Shown piece after piece: positions 1,392 to 21,838 of a DNA stretch of 24,699 nucleotides. Both the position numbers and the translations under genes were made by a program. The notes under the pieces were generated by a model that was not told where the DNA came from, did not search any database, and saw nothing but the letters and a program-made list of their open reading frames with translations. Position 1 is the stretch's first letter. The number at the start of each line of letters is the position of its first letter. The stretch comes from Lachnospiraceae bacterium (GTDB lineage: Bacteria > Bacillota > Clostridia > Lachnospirales > Lachnospiraceae), in contig CABJAV010000038.1 in NCBI GenBank assembly GCA_902363675.1, positions 1-24,699 of the forward strand. The letters are read 5' to 3'.

Positions 1392-3152
1392 TCAATCGCC
1401 ATATTCATAATAATAAGAAACACTATAACTTGGAATAAATGTGTAACTTGAGCTGCTCGACTGAAAAGCCACGCTCCATGTTCCCTTTAGTTTAGCGTTG
1501 CTTGATGAATCATTTACAAAATTAAAATTTATACTTGGATAGAAGTCAGATTCATTTGCAACCCAAACCGACTTATTAGGTGCCATTAATCTCCATCTTT
1601 TAATTTTAGACATCCCTGTTCCGCTAAGACTAATAGTTCTTACCTGTGCCGTATTAGGAATATCATCTCCACTTACACTAAATGTCCGTGTTGACGAATA
1701 TCCTGAACCCGTAGCTGTCACAGATGTTCCTGGTATGATCTTTGTGCTTGCAGCACACATAACAGGATTTCCAACAGCAGTTGCTATACTACCTGTTCTA
1801 AGAGATACTCCTTCCGTTGGATTCGTACAATAAACTACCAAATAATATTCTGTTCCAACTACCGTAGTCAGCCTTGCTTTTTCAGCGCAGCACCAACCAC
1901 CACTACCTGTAAATGAGGTCTTATGCGTATCGTCATCCTTAGCTGAATCATACATAACTGCCAAAGTATCCACATTCAATATCTTAAAACGAATATCTGT
2001 AGCACTACTTAAAATCGTAATAACACTTGTCGAATTTCTTTTATATTTATACCAATATTCACCAACATTAGGTACATATGAATTATTCTGTAAATTTACT
2101 TTTGATTCATAATATTGATCCAATAAAACTGTATTCTCAATGCCACTCATCATCAATTCAGTATCATTTTTATCGCCTACTATAATCCTATAATCGCTTG
2201 CTCTATCTTCATACGAATTAGGTGTAGCAACTACTGTGTAATTACAAACAGTCACATCATCGGAAGGTTTATCAATATAACCCCAATTTTTTGCCTGTCT
2301 ATAATTCGTTCCTTTATTCAGAACCTGATTTCCATTCTCATCGTAAACTTTAATATTTGTGCCTACATAGCCCTTTCTAACTAAACATACGGCAGCAGAA
2401 TCCATCTGTGAAAAGTCTATTGAAAAATCATATGTAGCAGAATCTTTTTCTGAGGTAAAACTACCTTCAAACGCCTGATATGTTTCTTTCGCAGGTGCTT
2501 CAATAACTTTAATTGAATATCCAACCACGCGAGAATACTCTCCTGCACTATCTTCTACCTGATAATATAAATAGTATGTTCCCGGATCTGTAATCTGTAC
2601 AACAAATCCCCCATTGATTGTTCCAATAATATAATCTACTGCACTTCCATCCACATAACGGGAAGCTATTGTGTCCCCATCTTCATCTGTATCATTATAG
2701 AAAAATGCAATTCTTGTATCTGTTGTAATCTGCCCTTCTGATAAAGAGTCTTCGTTTACTATAACTGGAATTAAATTAGCTGTTGGTGCAGTTCTTTCCA
2801 TTTCAGTATCAACCGAAATACTGTCAGTAAGATTTTCAGCCATATTATCCATTGACACTGTATCATCCAATTCTATTTCTCCTTTTTCTTCAAAAATAGA
2901 ATCTAATGATCTAAATCCAACACGTTCAGTATATTCCATACTCTGTGTCTGTATTTGATTTTCCTCCGTTGTTACTTTGACAGGCTCTAAATCATTTTCC
3001 TCAATATCTGTGTTATTGTTTTCCTGCTCTGCCAACCATTCATCATACGTCATGTTGGTAATTGTTTCTTCCGCAAATGCAGTAGTTGTAGTTACTGAAA
3101 ACAACATACATATTGCTACTGCAAATGCAAAAATTTTCGTTACTTTCTTCAT
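1392..3152 (-). CDS. Secreted 586-aa multidomain extracellular protein
   Basis: The start has a very strong ribosome site (AAGGAGG, 7 bases from ATG). Residues 1-27 form a signal peptide: MKK, a hydrophobic core, and an AFA cleavage site. Residues 28-130 are acidic and low-complexity. About residues 140-215 look like an immunoglobulin-like beta domain (DPGTYYLYYQVEDSAGEYSR). Residues 225-460 resemble pre-peptidase C-terminal type beta-sandwiches (DSATYDFSIDF, GTNIKVYDENGNQ, GTEYYLVVY). The C-terminus is Ser/Tyr-rich beta. There is no LPXTG, no C-terminal membrane anchor and no visible protease triad, so it is probably released or loosely wall-bound. An adhesin-like or accessory role is inference. 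Direct repeats about 150 bp upstream suggest dedicated regulation. Confidence 0.75.
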   Translation of the reverse strand: MKKVTKIFAFAVAICMLFSVTTTTAFAEETITNMTYDEWLAEQENNNTDIEENDLEPVKVTTEENQIQTQSMEYTERVGFRSLDSIFEEKGEIELDDTVSMDNMAENLTDSISVDTEMERTAPTANLIPVIVNEDSLSEGQITTDTRIAFFYNDTDEDGDTIASRYVDGSAVDYIIGTINGGFVVQITDPGTYYLYYQVEDSAGEYSRVVGYSIKVIEAPAKETYQAFEGSFTSEKDSATYDFSIDFSQMDSAAVCLVRKGYVGTNIKVYDENGNQVLNKGTNYRQAKNWGYIDKPSDDVTVCNYTVVATPNSYEDRASDYRIIVGDKNDTELMMSGIENTVLLDQYYESKVNLQNNSYVPNVGEYWYKYKRNSTSVITILSSATDIRFKILNVDTLAVMYDSAKDDDTHKTSFTGSGGWCCAEKARLTTVVGTEYYLVVYCTNPTEGVSLRTGSIATAVGNPVMCAASTKIIPGTSVTATGSGYSSTRTFSVSGDDIPNTAQVRTISLSGTGMSKIKRWRLMAPNKSVWVANESDFYPSINFNFVNDSSSNAKLKGTWSVAFQSSSSSYTFIPSYSVSYYYEYGD

Positions 3153-3687: not shown

Positions 3688-5001
3688 TTAAGCTGCTCTA
3701 TATAGAAAGCTTATCGCCGACTGGGGCTTGACTTTGCGAGGGTCTGTTCTCCCAGGACGTATAGGAAGAAGCTCATGTCCGATTAGATATTCTACATCGG
3801 GTGGAGCTTTTTCTTTTTTAATCGATAGAAAGTAACAGCAAATCCGAATTGCTCGGGTATAGTTGAGCTGATATGTATGTTTACAGCCTTTTTTCTCATT
3901 TATAACAACATTAGTTGCTATAATTTCACAGAAATTATACAGAGTCATTCTTGACCATATTTCCTGCATAATATATTCTGGTTTCTTTGAATGAAAACGT
4001 GTTAGTCCTAAGGCATATTTCAATTCTCGAAAAGCGGTTTCTATTCCCCAACGTTTTGCATATAACCGTTTGATTTCATCAGAATTAAATTTATCTTGTG
4101 GCAGATTTGTAATAATGCATTCATAAGAACCTTGAGGTATTGGAAAACGTATCACTCTCATTTTCATTTCGTAAAAATTATTAAAATGCAGATCAAGATA
4201 ATCAAAAGGCGTTTTCTTATCAATAACTCTGTATTTTTTGGGATTTGCTTTTACTTCATTTGTCTGCTTTTTAGTAAGCGTAACATTAACCCATTCATCA
4301 AATTCCCCACTCTCTGGAAGCATTGTAAGTTTTGAAGTTATACCATTACTTGTTATATCTTTGACACGAATTAAATAATACATTCCTTTGTGTTCCACAT
4401 GGGCAAATATATTATAATTCTCATAACCCCTGTCTGCGATAAAAATAGCTGATGTATCATTGTATCGGTCAATCATTTCACACATTGCACGTCTTTCATT
4501 CGCCAAGCGTGAAGGCTGGATAATTGCATCTGTGTATTGGCGGCTGCATAAATCATAAAAAGCATTTAAATGCAATAGGTTGTACCCTTTTCTGTCAGGA
4601 AGAGTTTGAAAATAGGTTGTTTCATCTTGGGGATTGTGTGCAATGCACAAATCCGAGCCATCACATGCAATCAGTCTAAGACCATTATATGTAACATTAT
4701 CCGTAAAAGACTTTGTAAATTCTTGGAATAAAAATTCAAATGCTTCAGGCAATATCTGTGCTCTACGCTGATTGAATGAAGAATTTGATGGTGTAGTATT
4801 ATCAAATTCAAAATATTCCAACAGTTCATCTCTTAATGCTTTGCCTTCCATTGTAAGCATGAACTTCATAACCTCTTCAAATGACCATTTCTTTTTACGG
4901 GAAAAGTCCGTTTTTGGATGCTTTGTAAATAGCCAATAGTAAGAATCCATTTTTGTAATAATTGATAGTAATTTTTGTTTTACCTCTGTAGAATAATTCA
5001 T
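3688..5001 (-). CDS. IS4-family DDE transposase, 437 aa
   Basis: Catalyses cut-and-paste transposition of the surrounding IS. The catalytic Asp residues are D114 (in IACDGSD) and D190 (in IFIADRGYE). The IS4 YREK signature is complete and correctly spaced: Y314, R317, E321, K328. The C-terminal region after the signature is retained. Length fits the family. The start has an AAGGAG ribosome site about 9 bases upstream. No frameshift or internal stop is present. An 18-bp perfect hairpin lies just upstream and may keep outside transcripts from expressing the gene. Confidence 0.93.
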   Translation of the reverse strand: MNYSTEVKQKLLSIITKMDSYYWLFTKHPKTDFSRKKKWSFEEVMKFMLTMEGKALRDELLEYFEFDNTTPSNSSFNQRRAQILPEAFEFLFQEFTKSFTDNVTYNGLRLIACDGSDLCIAHNPQDETTYFQTLPDRKGYNLLHLNAFYDLCSRQYTDAIIQPSRLANERRAMCEMIDRYNDTSAIFIADRGYENYNIFAHVEHKGMYYLIRVKDITSNGITSKLTMLPESGEFDEWVNVTLTKKQTNEVKANPKKYRVIDKKTPFDYLDLHFNNFYEMKMRVIRFPIPQGSYECIITNLPQDKFNSDEIKRLYAKRWGIETAFRELKYALGLTRFHSKKPEYIMQEIWSRMTLYNFCEIIATNVVINEKKGCKHTYQLNYTRAIRICCYFLSIKKEKAPPDVEYLIGHELLPIRPGRTDPRKVKPQSAISFLYRAA

Positions 5002-7624: not shown

Positions 7625-10600
7625 CTATCTTTTCCTGTTTCTGTCTGGCATATAGATTCCCTTATCCTCTGCAACAATACCCGCATTTTCTATTCTGTCC
7701 TCAGACTTTTCTTCGTCCGGTCCGCCAAGATCTGCATCCATAGCCTTTGCGTTCTCAAGGTCAAGCTGGGCATTTAATTCATACTGCCTTGCAAGTTTTT
7801 CTTCCAGTTCTGCACTATATGCAAACGGCTTGTCATACTCCGCCTTTGAAGCCTCAAGATCATTTTGGTACTGTTCAATCTTCTTTTCCAGAAAATCAAC
7901 ATTTTCGTGAAGTCCGTTGAACAGGTTCTCCAGCTTTACCATACTTCCCACCGGACTTGTGGAAAGTTCCGCCTTGTATTCCGTCTTTCCACGAAGCACC
8001 ATATAGTTGATACTGAGGAAATTCTTTTCCACCAGAAGCTCAAAGCCGTGGAACTTACCGACTGGAGTGGTTTCGCCTGTCTTACATTTGCTGATTGCTT
8101 CAAGCATTACGGTTCCACCATCCACTCGCTCTGTATAAGTTGCATTGCCTATGGTAATGGCAAAGTCCGGGTTATCAATCAATTCCTTATCCCTTGCCTT
8201 TATATCCTCCCTTACATTGGCAAGTTTTTCTGTCGCAGTTTTGATGAGTTTTGGATATTTGATCATAAAATTATCCTGCAATCCGTATCTCTGATTATCA
8301 TACGACGCTTTTAAGAGCTTTAATCTCTGGACATCATTGTCAACCTCCATCTTTTCCCTGATTAAAGGGTTGCCTGTCGCAACCGCCTTAATCTCCGCAT
8401 AAGAAAGTGTTGCCTCATCAATGTCCTCACAGCTTCGGCTCACTGCCTTGCTTGTCATAACCTGACTGATGAAACGCTGCTTGTTTTCCACAAGTGACCA
8501 GTTGTATGCATCAAAGGTTTGTTTTGTAACATATCGGTAGATTGCCACCTCATCGTTTTTATTTCCCTGTCGGATACCTCTGCCTTCCCTCTGTTCAATG
8601 GAAGAAGGCTTCCACGGGCAATCGACATGGTGCATTGCAACAAGGTGTGTCTGTACATTAACTCCGGTTCCGCACTTATCTGTCGAACCGATAAGGACTT
8701 TTTTCTTACCTGTCCTCATTTCCTTAAAGAGTGCATCCCTCTGTGCGTCTGTTTTTGCATCGTGAATAAATGCTATCTCCTCCGCAGGGATACCATATTG
8801 GATAAGTGACTCCTTCAGATAATCATAAATCGTAAAGTCCTTGTCCGGTCCCGGTGTTCCAATATCCGAAAAAATAAGCTGACAGCCTATATGACCATCA
8901 GCATTTCCTTTTACATATTCTTTCCAGACATTTTCCGCTACCTTATTGAGCTTTCCGTCCGGGTTGTTCGGTGCGTCCTTATCAATCAGTCTTGCGTCTG
9001 TTCCAAGAAGTCTTGCTTCGTGCGTAATCTTTAAGAAGTTGTCAACACTTGGATCAACACCCCCGCCCCTTATCCTTTCTGCCCTTACAACAAATTCTTC
9101 CATTACCTGCTTCACATACCAGTCCGGCTCCGACTCCACGATGATAGGCTTGCCGCCACGCAGAGCTGGCACATCAAGGTCAAGCATATCCGCTGTCTGC
9201 ACATCGGCAACCTCACGGAAGATGTTCATAAGCTCCGGCAGATTGGTAAACTTATTGAACCTGCTCTTGAAACGGAAACCACTGCCCTCAACCGTAAGCT
9301 CCAGTGCCGTTGTTACTTCTCCAAAGTTAGCCGCCCACGAGTCGAAATGATGAATTCCCATCTCCTCAAGTGCCGATTTCTGCAAATAAAGCTGCATAAC
9401 ATACATCTCACACATTGTGTTGCTTATCGGTGTACCTGTTGCAAATACAATTCCCCTGCCATCATTTATCTCTGATAAATACTGGCATTTAAGCTGCATA
9501 TCCGTTGACTTTTTAGCCCCACTACTGCTGATTCCCGACACATTATTCATCTTTGAAAATGTGGCGAGGTTCTTAAAATTGTGTGCTTCGTCTACCATAA
9601 TAGAGTCAACACCCAGCTCCTCAAAGGTAATGAGGTCATCTTTCCTGCTCTCATCGGTCAGGGATTTAAGCTGTTCCTCCAGCTTTTTCTTCTGGCTTTC
9701 CATCTGCTTTACGGTCCAGCGTTCCCCGTTCCGCTCCTTCATATCATCAATCGCATAGGTGATCTCATTTATCTGTTCATTAAGCATTCGCTCCTTTCTC
9801 TCTGCCGAAATTGGAATTTTTTCAAATTGCGAGTGCGACATAATGATGCAGTCATAATCGCCTGTCGCAATCCTTGACACAAACTGCTTTCTTCGGCTCT
9901 TTTCAAAATCACGCTCCGTTGCAACCAAGATGTTTGCTGACGGGTAAAGCCTTAAAAATTCACTTGCCGTCTGCCCGATAAGCGGCTTTGGCACTACCAT
10001 AATTGTCTTATTGGAAAGTCCGAGTCTTTTCTGTTCCATACACGCAGCCATCATTTCAAACGACTTTCCGGCTCCGACGCAGTGGGCAAGCAGGGTATTT
10101 CCTCCCATAAGGATTCGTGCCACCGCATTTTTCTGGTGCGGTTTTAATTCAATCTCAGGGTTCATTCCTGGAAATTGCAAATGGCTTCCGTCATACTCAC
10201 GCAGGCGGATATTATTGAAGGTTTCATTATAATATTCCACATACTTCTGTCGGCGTTCCGGTTCTGCAAACAGCCATTCCTTGAACTTCTCCTTGATCAT
10301 ATTCTGCTTTTCCCTTGCAAGCATTGTCTCATTCTTATTGACTTCATAATGGTACTTGCCATCACCGTCATCAATCCTGTCCCTGACAGTGACTGTTTTT
10401 AAGTTCAGGGTATCCTCAAAAATAGAATAAGCGTCCATTCTGCTTGTACCATAAGTTTTCGTTGCAGCCACGGAATGTTTATCCATACTTTTATTTTCAA
10501 TGAACCATTCCATACTCATTTTATTCAAGTGTACCTGAATACCGGAATTATAATACTCTGTTCTGATTGCCCTTGCCCTCTTTGGTGTATTAAGCAGCTC

Positions 10601-13600
10601 ATAGATAAACTGCTCATAATCAAGCGGCTCAATCCAAGTTGTACCAATCTTTACATCAATATCCGAGGCTTCAATCCATTCCGGCTGAACTTCCTCTAGG
10701 GCTGCGGCATTGGCGGCAAATCTTTCTGCCTGCGGATTATCGGTATCCGCCGCCATTGCCTTTGCAACACGCAGCTTATCCCTTACATTTCCCGACAGAT
10801 ATTCGTCTGCTGTCTCCCAGCCTGCGTCCGGGTTATTTTCATTGTAACGGTCAGGATTAAGAAATATAATTCCATCAAGTTCCTTTATGAGAGTATCCCT
10901 GTCTGCTTCATAAATGGAGAGCATATAAGGGATATTTACATATCCAAACTCATTGACCGATACATTAAGAGCCTCTACCGCAGTTTCTACCCTGTCCACC
11001 ACGGACTTTGCCTTAATCGTCTGCTTATAAAACATATCAGCCTTCTTCACCTCCCCGTCCTCATTTACTTCTTCAAGACTGCAAAGAAGCGGATAATCGC
11101 TGTCATCCCTGAACGCTGTACGGTTTGCTTTGGAAGTGATTGCTCCATACTTTCCAACGAATTTATCATATTTTACATTCAAAAGCTGCTGTTTGTCTGC
11201 AAGCTCCTCATCACTACAGCCCTCCATCTGGATATCAATCAGCTCTCTTGTTATCTGTCTGATTTCATCAAGGCTCTTGATACGCTCCTCTGCTGTCGGT
11301 GATACTTTCTGCCTTACCATCTCTGAATTTTCCCTGTAATAAAGTTTTCCTTCAAAGAATGTGTAAGTATAATTTCTGACATCCGGATCAGCGGGAATGA
11401 CTTCCTCTGTCTGTTCCTCATTATCTGCCAGTCTCTCAAAATCTGTCATCTGTGCTCTGATGTTACAGATTGCCTTATTGAGTGCTTCATACAGATTGAA
11501 GTTCTCATCATTATTCACACAGACGGTATATCTGCTGTCCTGTCCGAACATCCTTGTGTCATACTGCATTGTACCAAGCATCATCTCCGGGTGCTCTGCA
11601 AAATAGGAATTGACTGCTATGCCATCACCTGTGACACCAAGATGTACCCAGTCAGGCTCTATATCAATTTTTCGCTCTCTTTTCTGTAAAAAAAGAATGT
11701 CCGCAGTCACCTCAGTTCCTGCATTATCCTTAAATGCAGTATTCGGAAGTCGGATTGCTCCCACAAGTTCTGCCCTCTCAGCCAGATACTTTCGTATAGT
11801 CGGATTGCTCTTATCCAGTGTTCCCTTTGTGGTAATCACTGCAACCATGCCGCCCGGTCTTGCCTGATCGAGTGCTTTTGCCAGAAAATAATCGTGAATA
11901 CGGAAGTTATACTTGTTGTACTTTGGATCGAATATCTTATAATCTCCAAATGGCACATTTCCCATAACAACATCAAAAAAGTTATCCGGATATGTGGTGT
12001 TTTCAAATCCCGTAATACTGATATTGGCATTCTGGTAAAGCTGTTTTGCAATCCTTCCTGATATGCTGTCCAGCTCCACTCCATACAGCTTACTTTGCTG
12101 CATTGGTGCTGGCATACTTCCGAAGAAATTGCCGATACCCATAGAAGGCTCCAAGACATTGCCGCCTTTAAAGCCAAACTGCACAAGTGCTGAGTTAATA
12201 CACATTGCAATCTCAGGTGAAGTATAAAAGGCATTATTTACGGTTGCTCTTGCGGCACTGTATTCCTCATCGGAAAGAAGTTCTTTCAGTTCTGCATATT
12301 CTCTGGTCCACCCTGCATTATTCTCATCAAATGCCTGTGACAACCCGCCCCAGCCGACAAACTTTGATAAAACCGTCTGCTCCTCCTGTGTTGCAAGTCT
12401 GTTTTCTGCTTCAATCTGCTTTAGTGTACAGATTGCATCAATGTTCCACTGGTATCTGGTCTTTACACCGCCCTTTTCTGTTTCCCACAGGTTATAATGG
12501 AAATTGAGTTTTGTCTGGTCTTGTGTTTTTTCTTTTCCACGCAGACCTTCCGCTGGCGGTAATACTTCCTGTGCAGGTGTTTCAGGGGCAGCCTCCTGTG
12601 GTTCGGTATCATTCTGCGAAATATCTGCCGATACATTCTTATCCTCATCAGAAATTATACGACCATCCGTGTCAATCTTGGTATTCAAGCCATATGCAAT
12701 CGCCCGTTCTCTGGTTTTAAGACGGCTTTCTCTCACACTGTCCTCAATATCAAAGAACTTGCGGTAAACAGGATTCATCTTTTCCCTGTCAATCTTATTT
12801 TTTATGGTCTGATAGATTGCCTTCTGGTCCTCTCCACAGTAAAATGGCTGTTTTACCATATAGGATAAGATTTCATATACCTCACGCCACGATACGGTAT
12901 CCCCTGCCCTCTCTCCATTTCTGTTTTTGTAGCTTACTTTCACATCTGCACTGCTTAAAGTGTATTCTGTGAGTCCATACTGATTATTGCAATATGCCTT
13001 TCTCTCACCCTGAACATTTCCCATCGCTATCTCACAGATCAGTTCCAGCTTATTCGGCATAAATGCAAAATCCGATTGCACCACATCCATAAGGAAAGCA
13101 CGGAATGGTGTGTAACAGCTACATTCTGACACAAGTATCTCAATGGCATCTCTTAAATCTTCATCCATTGCAGCTACACGGTCAGCATAATCAATCGGCT
13201 TGATATACCGTAACTCAGCCGCCTTTCTGTTTACAGCATAACTGTCAGGCTCATCAGGAATAGCATAATCATCAATTTCTGATTTTTCCTCCTGCGTATC
13301 AACTTCACGGTACTCTGCGTCAATGACTTCATCATCTTCACGAAGTCCGTCCATTGCAAGCTCATCAATACGAGGTGTCTCCGACTGGTATTCTCCGGTA
13401 AGGATAAGTACACCGATTTCCTTTTCGACATTCTTCCACGAAACATATCCTTCTACTTCTCCATCTTGATCTTTCCATTGGATACGAAGTCCCGAACCGT
13501 GAAATGTGTCATACCCGTGCAAGCCCAGACCGTCAAGCGGCCAGCTTGCACCACCCTGACCATATTCTGCCTTGATACGCTTTGCTCTGGTTCCTGCGTC

Positions 13601-15070
13601 TATCTCTGTCTGATAGATTTCACACACCCTGCCTTTTCCACCGACAAAGCCAGTTCCTTTCATAAGTATCTCTTTTACATACTCACTTGGTACACTCTCT
13701 GCTTTCTTTGGATTAAGGTAATTATATTTTCTGGCAAGGGCAGCCTTTTTATCCTCCTCGAACTGACGCATAAATTCATTGTGTCTGGTTTTCTCCGGCT
13801 GCTTCACACCAAAACTTGCCTGCCCGTTTTGGTCGAAAAAAAAGGAAGCCTGTGTATATTCGGCTTCCTTACTGACACCCAATGAGTTAATCTCATCAAG
13901 CTCTCTATTTAATTCTTCCTGTGTTTCTAATGAAACTTCATCACGATCTGGTGGAGCACTACTTCCTCTGCCTGCATCTTCGCCTGCTCTCTTATCTTCC
14001 ACATCTCCATTGTCGATGACGGATTCTGTGGCTTGTGCTTCATTAGATACTGTTCCTCCAACTGATCGTAAAGCTGGTTTGCTTCCTCCTCTACTGCCGA
14101 CATCTTCTCGTACATCTTCCCGAATCTCATCAGTGTCTTGTACCTTGCCGGTTCGTTCTCCAGAAGATACTTCATTGCCATTCTCCCGTATCTGCCCAGC
14201 TTCGTTAAATCCTCTGTCTCGTCCGGCATTGTCAGCTCCGGATACAGCAGTCCGTCCACTTCCTTGTAAGTCATTGCTTCTAACATATGATATTCTCCTT
14301 TCGCTCTCAATCGTTTGTAAATTCCTACTAAATTCTCTAAGAACACTACAGGAGACATCGCATACAAGGGAACCAAGACGGTAAACTATCTCCTCATCTT
14401 TGATATTTACAATCTGACTGAAATCCTGTTCTTGCACAGATAAGTCAAATCCACATCTCGTCCCTACAGCATACATAACACTGGAATATACTAACTGCTC
14501 CATATCGCTATCCTGCTGTAAGCCCTTGCGTTTTTCGTTGAATTCCTTTATCACACTACCTGATAGCTGCATTAGTTCGGACATTCTATCCCCGAACTCC
14601 TCTTTTATTATATTCCAAACATTTGTTCCTGTAAACTGTTTTAGCGTATTTTTTAGTGATTCCCTGTCATCGCTTTTATACCGCTCCATCTGTCCTTCCG
14701 ATACCAGAAAGTCTGCATAACTTTTCAGGTTTTCCCCCTCCAGATCCCAAGTCAGCTTCACATTCTTTCCGCCTGTATCACTGATATCGAAAATATATCT
14801 CATACGGGGATTAAGTGCCCTTGAGGGGAAGATAGCACAGCCCTTTGCTCCACGCTTTACATATCTTCCCACTTTCTTCCAAGTGTCATAATCTGCCATA
14901 AGGGTACTTTTCTCCGGTGATCTCTGAGCTGTTACCATAACGATATTATCAAATTCATAGCGATATAACTGACCTGCAACCTTTAATACATCTTTCCAGT
15001 TCTTTTCAGAACGGGTGATGTTGCTGATTTCTGAATCATATATCGCTTTGACCTTCATATCAACACTCAT
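7625..15070 (-). CDS. Giant polyvalent ICE protein: ArdC/LtrC-like, DNA methylase fold, SNF2-type helicase (2481 aa)
   Basis: Residues 1-110 match the ArdC/LtrC-type N-terminal ssDNA-binding or antirestriction domain ([39 protein letters not shown]). Residues 250-390 are a disordered linker. Residues 400-900 are LtrC-like. Residues 930-1170 have an adenine-methylase fold: [13 protein letters not shown] binds SAM, and GNVPFGDY stands where NPPY usually is. Residues 1640-2230 are an SF2/SNF2 helicase: Walker A CVGAGKS near 1663, DEAH near 1827, [10 protein letters not shown], and [12 protein letters not shown] near 2163. A coiled C-terminus follows. Such polyvalent proteins are thought to protect or process DNA entering the recipient. 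The start has a GGAGGG site. A second gene is embedded at residues 262-381. Confidence 0.92.
13836..13870 (-). terminator. Canonical intrinsic terminator inside the giant ORF, downstream of embedded tnpV
   Basis: On the minus strand AAGGAAGCC (13870-13862) pairs perfectly with GGCTTCCTT (13850-13842) around an 11-base loop, followed by a run of T's to 13836. It lies 57 bases after the TnpV stop, while the giant frame reads through it as [13 protein letters not shown]. The strength and placement fit termination of a tnpV transcript. Confidence 0.7.
13927..14286 (-). CDS. tnpV: TnpV-family transposon-encoded protein, overprinted inside the giant gene (119 aa)
   Basis: A full-length ORF in a different minus-strand frame from the giant gene. 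It starts at an ATG with AAAGGAG 8 bases upstream. The protein has the TnpV pattern: a start with [17 protein letters not shown], then [20 protein letters not shown], a central helical stretch ending [16 protein letters not shown], and a final [22 protein letters not shown] helix. Length equals the usual 110-125 residues. TnpV proteins accompany Firmicutes transposons and ICEs; their biochemical role is not established. The overlapped giant residues 262-381 are a Gly/Ser/Arg/Asp-rich linker, which would tolerate overprinting. An intrinsic terminator follows. The call rests on recognised family pattern plus a proper ribosome site. Confidence 0.75.
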
Positions 15071-21245: not shown

Positions 21246-21509
21246 ATGCCAGCAATCAAATCAAGTGCTGATTTAAGGAATAATTACAATGAAATTTCTA
21301 CATTTTGTCATAATTATCCTGAACCAGTTTTCATCACGAAGAATGGAAAAGGCGACCTTGCCGTTATGAGCATTGAAGCCTACGAAGAACTGACCAGCCG
21401 CTTTGAACTTTACAGCCAGATCAAGGAAGGAATGGACGATATTGTCACAGGCAACACCAGACCATTTTCCGAAGCTATGGCTGATATCAGGAGCCGCCGC
21501 AGTCGATGA
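21246..21509 (+). CDS. Phd/YefM-family antitoxin, 87 aa
   Basis: Neutralises the adjacent ParE/RelE toxin and represses its own promoter. The N-terminal Phd/YefM fold is visible: IKSSADLRNNYNEISTFC, then PVFITKNGKGDLAVMSIEAYEEL. The C-terminal 40 residues are a charged helix that would bind the toxin. The start is fixed by AAGGAGG and by a promoter with an operator palindrome. The stop overlaps the toxin start (ATGA). It is transcribed against the surrounding conjugation genes and serves plausibly to stabilise the element in the cell. Confidence 0.92.
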   Translation: MPAIKSSADLRNNYNEISTFCHNYPEPVFITKNGKGDLAVMSIEAYEELTSRFELYSQIKEGMDDIVTGNTRPFSEAMADIRSRRSR

Positions 21510-21838
21510 GCTATCAGGTTCATATCACTTCCACCGCAGAACACGATATTATGCGTGCTGCGGATTACATCGAATTTACCCTCAAAAATCCTGATGCCGC
21601 AGATAATCTGTTAGATGCTGCGACTGAGCAGATAAGCTCACTAGCCGACCTGCCACAGAAGTTCTGTCTGGTAGATGATCCGGTACTGGCAAGCTGGGGC
21701 ATTCGTTTTGTGATAATCAATAATTACCTTGCCTTTTATACGATTGATGAAGAAAAGCAGACTGTAATCATAGTCCGATTTCTCTATCAGAAAAGTAACT
21801 GGACTTCCATTCTTCGACAGGGATTTTCCCTCATTTAA
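21506..21838 (+). CDS. RelE/ParE-family toxin, 110 aa
   Basis: The sequence follows the RelE/ParE pattern: YQVHITSTAEHDIMRAADYIE in the first helix, then a WGIRFVIINNYLAFYTIDEE core and a final VIIVRFLYQKSNW strand. Toxins of this fold either cleave ribosome-bound mRNA (RelE) or poison gyrase (ParE). The long first helices and the VRFLYQ end favour the ParE side, but the target cannot be settled by eye. It overlaps the antitoxin by 4 bases and ends in its own terminator, which also overlaps the 3' end of the convergent prgI gene. Confidence 0.9.
   Translation: MSYQVHITSTAEHDIMRAADYIEFTLKNPDAADNLLDAATEQISSLADLPQKFCLVDDPVLASWGIRFVIINNYLAFYTIDEEKQTVIIVRFLYQKSNWTSILRQGFSLI

Follow-up and report, generated by a model that had tools for sequence, protein, structure and literature searches.

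The window analysed in this study is a stretch of 24,699 nucleotides from a Lachnospiraceae bacterium (contig CABJAV010000038.1 of assembly GCA_902363675.1), and it carries a very long gene, hereafter the giant, whose parts are listed in Table 1 together with the features that we found in distant relatives. The giant encodes an adenine methylase followed by an SNF2/SF2 helicase, as recognized both by Pfam and by phrog_10089, and is for that reason described here as DarB-like. Its first 250 codons gave no match in a Pfam scan; we call them an ArdC-N part, which is also the NCBI name of the Listeria homologues. Because its neighbours include a VirB4/TraG-like ATPase, PrgI, an NlpC/P60 protein and a TrbC-like protein (the last below cut-off), the giant can be assigned to a conjugative element, of which the window may contain only part. 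A Pfam scan covering 21 ORFs of the window found a single transposition gene, the DDE transposase that lies among the element genes. Elsewhere in the window, a Phd/YefM antitoxin and ParE toxin pair is found at 21246-21838 on the plus strand, opposite to the conjugation genes, and the ORFs at 229-1296 (355 aa) and 1392-3152 (586 aa) have no Pfam match of any kind.

Table 1. Features of the nested locus in the window and of comparable loci in other replicons (entries with an L number are positions within that locus).
Feature	Position	Strand	Basis or remark
Giant DarB-like methylase-helicase gene, 2481 codons	7625..15070	minus	ORF, Pfam; core PHROG 10089 DarB-like antirestriction, 1.2e-122
N-terminal part of giant, codons 1-250	14321..15070	minus	conserved in alignment of relatives
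Shine-Dalgarno-like GAAAGGAG ahead of tnpV ATG, within giant codons	14295..14302	minus	sequence
Linker of giant, codons 262-381, Gly/Ser/Arg/Asp/Glu-rich, very probably dual-coding	13928..14287	minus	composition, synonymous change
tnpV, 119-aa ORF including stop, +1 frame relative to giant	13927..14286	minus	Pfam PF14198, 1.7e-27
Methylase core with GWGG motif (alignment A1, used in surveys)	11651..12460	minus	PHROG match
SNF2/SF2 helicase part, ResIII to Helicase_C	8564..10153	minus	Pfam
DDE transposase (PF01609)	3688-5001		Pfam
Second small family nested in +1 frame, Campylobacter/Salmonella/Helicobacter plasmids	L119:4794-5267; L133:2501-2794; L134:2501-2785; L135:92-565
346-aa ORF in +1 frame in methylase-helicase gene, Campylobacter sp. 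RM16187 plasmid	L128:1835-2872		no detected family
+1 ORFs just before methylase core	L131:2441-2923 (Arthrobacter); L122:2678-2965 (Alteromonas)
DUF1896 gene overlapping methylase-helicase start by 11 bases, two Bacteroidota plasmids	L129:2553-2978; L132:2501-2938

A preliminary description of this DNA had claimed that a complete TnpV ORF of 119 residues lies in another frame, on the same strand, inside the 2481-codon gene, and the coordinates, the frame and the Pfam match all agree with this; the description gave no strand for the ORF, which is on the minus strand. The ORF begins with the ATG at 14286, its stop ends at 13927, and it lies wholly within the 15070→7625 ORF in such a way that codon position 1 of TnpV is codon position 2 of the giant. 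Membership in the TnpV family follows from a match over the whole profile (residues 6-115 on positions 1-111 of 111) with a score of 96 bits against a cut-off of 27, and a search of the same 119-aa protein against NCBIfam gave no match. The structure of this small protein is predicted with confidence (pLDDT 89) and as largely helical, and its fold matches in structure comparison are weak. The Shine-Dalgarno site that had been proposed for it is present 8 bases ahead of the ATG, and the AAAGG motif occurs in 54 of 61 overprinted start regions compared with 4 of 22 standalone ones, a count in which the choice of start favoured Shine-Dalgarno-like sites. The low-complexity Gly/Ser/Arg/Asp linker said to cross tnpV was likewise recognizable in the composition of the giant, being rich in Glu as well and containing no Cys.

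The nested arrangement is a conserved property of the gene family and not just of this element, a point that the preliminary description missed. A homology scan with the window's TnpV, taking one genome per species, gave 37 loci whose TnpVs are 49-100% identical to it, the identical one being in Roseburia inulinivorans DSM 16841 (L001). In 35 of these loci a long giant ORF on the same strand encloses the complete TnpV, in a constant relative frame; L037, truncated by its contig end, is nested over the part that is present, and L036 is a standalone TnpV. Since this set was found through TnpV similarity it could not reveal losses of TnpV, and a survey of 398 genomes, sampled around the nearest available genome, with the methylase core gave 25 full-length cores (E below 1e-100), 23 of which have a TnpV match upstream within the gene (coordinates compared by eye). 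In G256 the giant is split across two contigs and TnpV is on the other piece; G146 (L093), whose linker is coding but not Arg/Gly/Asp-rich, is the sole full-length giant among the 25 with no TnpV match by Pfam or by our own profile. A full-length giant with no TnpV was seen once, and none of the three outcomes that the preliminary description had named as refuting its proposal was obtained. Two of the 23 matches, in G325 and G027, fall below the Pfam cut-off; a profile built without these genes gave 5.5e-6 for G325 and a doubtful 0.029 for G027, and 1.4e-10 for G030, which is weak in Pfam.

TnpV itself does not need the overlap, since a Pfam TnpV search of the 398-genome sample gave 57 matches in 28 genomes, and the 50 examined comprised 25 overprinted loci and 25 lying outside a giant, the latter including fragments and contig-edge copies. 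When L001-L036, the 50 survey loci and the window are taken together, a sampling biased to the window, 61 of the 87 TnpV loci are nested in a giant gene, always in the +1 frame (61 of 61), and both frames are open across these diverged relatives. In 60 of the 61 the giant frame is open for at least 150 codons before tnpV and at least 300 after it. Six of L001-L036, namely L008, L016, L017, L028, L032 and L033, have an early stop in the giant frame (847-1431 codons, within the locus) and an intact TnpV, and at least one Listeria record (H70) keeps TnpV with a match to the methylase core that covers no more than 26%, which means that some of the Listeria plasmid records may have a broken giant. 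Both kinds of case may represent a TnpV that has outlasted its host gene, or they may be assembly errors. In L016 and L027, bins labelled Bacteroidales carry contigs with TnpVs nearly identical to Lachnospiraceae ones, which may reflect either bin contamination or recent transfer.

Plasmids of Enterococcus faecalis (L088, L092, L114), Virgibacillus (L089), Listeria monocytogenes (L115) and Subdoligranulum variabile (L113) carry the same nesting, as does a contig from a faecal phage collection that is unverified as phage (L091), with TnpV profile E values from 5.9e-44 to 4.7e-12. The TnpV of Listeria pLM6179 is above the Pfam cut-off (1.1e-6), and 95 Listeria plasmid records carry the TnpV protein. 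Nesting probably extends to Nitratidesulfovibrio vulgaris (L117) and Streptomyces sp. 11x1 (L125). In the former TnpV is sure (Pfam 1.2e-6, above cut-off; own profile 3e-8) and the nesting is read from the helicase frame, which is +1-related and stays open, though no recognized domain lies upstream. In the latter the giant is annotated across the TnpV position and the TnpV match is moderate (1.2e-5 with our own profile; Pfam 0.0019, below cut-off; hhalign 4e-8 with a profile containing L064 and L065), in DNA of 71% G+C, where open frames come cheaply.

The suspicion that annotation tends to lose one partner of such a pair was borne out in these records, which were compared through a plasmid gene table that is incomplete. 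The Enterococcus, Virgibacillus and pLM6179 records list the giant and omit tnpV, and the Nitratidesulfovibrio record lists TnpV and has a helicase shortened to begin after it. The overlap of both genes was not displayed in any nested record that we examined; either one gene is listed alone or the helicase is shortened. Among the 25 matches listed for the protein of the Listeria plasmid records, the overlying feature is named ArdC-like in 16 cases, SNF2-related in four and TnpV in two (one of them Heyndrickxia), with three bearing another name or none.

Our results suggest that one DNA stretch very probably encodes two real proteins, TnpV and the giant. The computed support is that both frames are open, conserved and under selection, that the start signal is conserved, and that the two genes are co-inherited, the distances between TnpVs and between methylase cores being correlated (r = 0.89, n = 25). 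A competing explanation is that only TnpV is functional, that the giant frame is open by composition, and that an N-terminal protein and a helicase are in reality made as separate products. This explanation draws on the observations that the giant-frame protein in the overlap is of low complexity and changes more than its flanks at positions 1 and 2, and that the helicase is annotated after the small gene in Nitratidesulfovibrio, Pseudomonas and Burkholderia. However, in a set of 36 overprinted TnpVs made non-redundant at a 93% identity cut (L064, L065 and L087 left out), the giant frame is open in 36 of 36 copies, compared with 1 of 20 standalone copies. This openness, together with the fact that accident does not yield a full-length family match, is also why we regard tnpV as more than a chance ORF. 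When the same TnpV proteins were randomly recoded with synonymous codons, the mean probability of an open giant frame was 0.0012 with standalone codon usage, so that of 36 copies 0.04 would be expected to be open; overprinted codon usage raised it to 0.033.

Codon choice in the overprinted copies argues further against an open frame by composition. A codon ending in T before AA, AG or GA would create a stop in the giant frame, and it was found at none of 1415 such sites in overprinted copies versus 15.5% of 729 in standalone ones; at sites where it could create no stop, T is also rarer in overprinted copies, though less strongly so (0.219 vs 0.341). Four-fold wobble sites change less in overprinted than in standalone pairs in all five identity bins (0.344/0.383, with the standalone value from 2 pairs only; 0.476/0.589; 0.563/0.685; 0.616/0.686; 0.570/0.680). 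Across the overlap the giant-frame protein lacks Cys, has few Met, Trp, Phe and Tyr residues and is depleted in stops, and this depletion of residues would be expected for a flexible linker. The host frame is therefore under selection within the overlap, and we consider it very improbable that TnpV is the only functional product.

Selection on the nested frame was seen in a comparison of 20 aligned giants, of which 11, the window included, are close to each other; the measure was the share of codons identical in amino acid that differ synonymously in the giant frame. For the 11 close sequences this share was 0.018 across codons 262-381, compared with 0.155-0.302 across the seven other segments, among them codons 1-250 (0.158) and the stretch just after the overlap (0.172), and it was likewise low (0.036) in codons 251-261, the 11 before the overlap, which carry the Shine-Dalgarno site. 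For all 20 sequences it was 0.056 in the overlap versus 0.235-0.426 elsewhere. The five 40-codon windows of lowest third-position change in the whole giant start at codons 261, 281, 301, 321 and 341 and are the tnpV ones. The conservation of giant-frame synonymous sites on which the preliminary description had staked its proposal is thus strong over exactly the tnpV coordinates. In 253 pairs with 60-80% identity upstream, differences at TnpV positions 1/2/3 were.240/.149/.394 in the overlap, and those at the giant's own positions upstream of it were.264/.176/.485; position 3 of the giant, normally its freest, coincides with position 2 of TnpV and is here the most conserved of the three. A signal lying within a gene can keep synonymous change low, but the idea that an RNA or DNA signal (an origin, attachment site or regulatory structure) accounts for the dip with no second protein has almost nothing left to recommend it, because the conserved frame reads as a complete TnpV whose codon positions vary as in a protein gene, is homologous to standalone TnpV proteins, and the dip ends where the tnpV ORF ends.

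More distant relatives carry other small genes at the same place. A protein of 101 aa in Pseudomonadota (45 database relatives) and one of 158 aa in Campylobacterota (27 database relatives) are read in the +1 frame immediately ahead of the methylase core, and hhalign places them in one family (4e-7); profile comparisons of this family with TnpV established no relation, although its AlphaFold models and that of TnpV share a helix pattern. The giant of Campylobacter coli is annotated from upstream of the nested ORF, and the one pair compared, with C. peloridis, shows giant-frame differences of.381/.150/.069 in the overlap versus.080/.047/.270 downstream, and overlap identities of 79% for the nested protein and 53% for the giant frame, which reads as a clear dual-coding signature like that of tnpV. 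The giant of Salmonella sp. 14 starts 28 bases ahead of the nested ORF, and a Helicobacter suis relative (38% over 60% of the query) stands in the same relation to its giant. The Campylobacter version matches 212 plasmid records and the Pseudomonas version 65, these being protein matches and not counts of nesting; in Pseudomonas and Burkholderia nesting is less sure, because of the high G+C and of an annotated helicase that begins downstream of the small gene.

Sixteen more distant giants were read, and by our reading a +1 ORF precedes the core in nine of them (Burkholderia, Nitratidesulfovibrio, Gordonia, C. coli, Pseudomonas, Alteromonas, Streptomyces, Campylobacter RM16187 and Arthrobacter); the RM16187 ORF is very long for chance in DNA of 35% G+C. 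Emticicia and Leptolyngbya have a separate upstream gene, and no convincing nested ORF was found in the remaining five, which are the P1-like DarB (L120), Agrobacterium, Acetobacter, Acinetobacter and Rhodococcus. The DUF1896 gene (PF08989) of Bacteroidota plasmids is likewise small and sits immediately ahead of a methylase gene of this kind, but it is a separate gene that shares only 11 bp with it, whereas tnpV is fully nested. Profile comparison found no sequence similarity between DUF1896 and TnpV, and structure comparison gave a weak hint of kinship in which the 2apl match was tied.

These distributions can be read, tentatively and at somewhat less than even chances, as evidence that TnpV is the nested subunit of a dual-coding module of ancient origin, carried by plasmids and conjugative elements, with a +1-frame partner gene in Bacillota, Actinomycetota, Thermodesulfobacteriota, Pseudomonadota and Campylobacterota, and that the transposon copies are escapees. 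We hold this reading slightly lower than we otherwise would because the Streptomyces match is moderate, the G027 match doubtful and the 2apl match tied. Standalone TnpVs fall within the overprinted diversity in TnpV trees, which were built from few columns and without an outgroup, and this suggests that the standalone transposon TnpVs could be escapes from overprinted genes, a possibility that the preliminary description also missed. A large serine recombinase lies beside standalone TnpV in 2 of 9 loci (10 neighbouring ORFs scanned). The standalone TnpV at L036:18-410 groups with overprinted ones and has an N-terminal extension like standalone copies; it is possibly an escape or a recombinant.

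As to how the overlap arose, we give roughly even odds to a 5′ extension of the methylase gene across a small upstream gene, the new frame having become a tolerant linker. A de novo birth of TnpV, overprinted on a linker that was already there, with later spread as a free gene, would fit the greater diversity of the overprinted copies in the trees and the tolerance of disordered linkers for second frames. We consider it unlikely, however, since TnpV is confidently predicted to be structured and, in Bacteroidota, DUF1896 with its weak structural hint of kinship sits directly upstream of the methylase with only the short overlap. It is doubtful, too, that TnpV is an old standalone transposon protein inserted into the giant's linker, perhaps by an integrative mobilizable element (IME) targeting snf2. 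Such TnpV-carrying IMEs, according to passages of PMC9815147, insert into snf2 genes of Streptococcus suis ICEs, but their 11-bp repeat has no exact or one-mismatch match in the window, and the position of standalone copies within the overprinted diversity speaks against insertion.

If the two frames are used as we propose, ribosomes from the giant's own start would read the linker in frame 0, and ribosomes initiating at the internal Shine-Dalgarno site and ATG would read TnpV from the same mRNA in frame +1; that both frames are translated is what we infer from the sequence. The giant would be a DarB-like polyvalent protein of the conjugative element, consisting of an N-terminal domain, a flexible linker, an adenine methylase and an SNF2 helicase, and it may act on incoming element DNA against restriction, by analogy with DarB of phage P1. 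P1 DarB-like proteins share the order of methylase and then SNF2 helicase, and the P1-like DarB differs in being without a nested gene. DarB-like polyvalent proteins have been proposed to act on element DNA during entry (Iyer et al. 2017, PMC5512222); the words TnpV and overlap are absent from the main text of that paper. The TnpV of Tn4451 and related mobilizable transposons belongs to the same PF14198 family over its whole length, and differs in that the gene described here is nested in the methylase-helicase gene of a conjugative element. In passages of PMC3158075, a role in excision is postulated for TnpV of Tn4451/Tn6104 on the strength of homology with lambda Xis. The near-constant place of TnpV inside DarB-like genes would instead favour a role with the DarB-like protein, and linkage is what leads us to suggest, a little short of an even chance, that TnpV is a partner, escort or regulator acting together with the methylase-helicase.

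Other fully nested same-strand overlapping genes of bacteria likewise use two frames of one strand, but tnpV differs from them in that it is a whole gene belonging to a named family, has stayed in a single frame across widely diverged relatives and is carried on mobile elements. To our knowledge, complete same-strand nested genes kept over such divergence are hardly known in bacteria. Among the titles and abstract openings of the open-access literature, subscription papers being mostly outside the search, we found none that reports TnpV overlapping a methylase-helicase gene, and its novelty is a fair guess. The nested pair, common in ICEs and conjugative plasmids, yields strong comparative statistics; catalogues of genes are prone to overlook it by showing one gene or shortening the other. 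It makes TnpV, a transposon protein of unclear role, a testable partner of an antirestriction-type methylase-helicase, and it offers a natural system for studying how a flexible linker absorbs a second gene.
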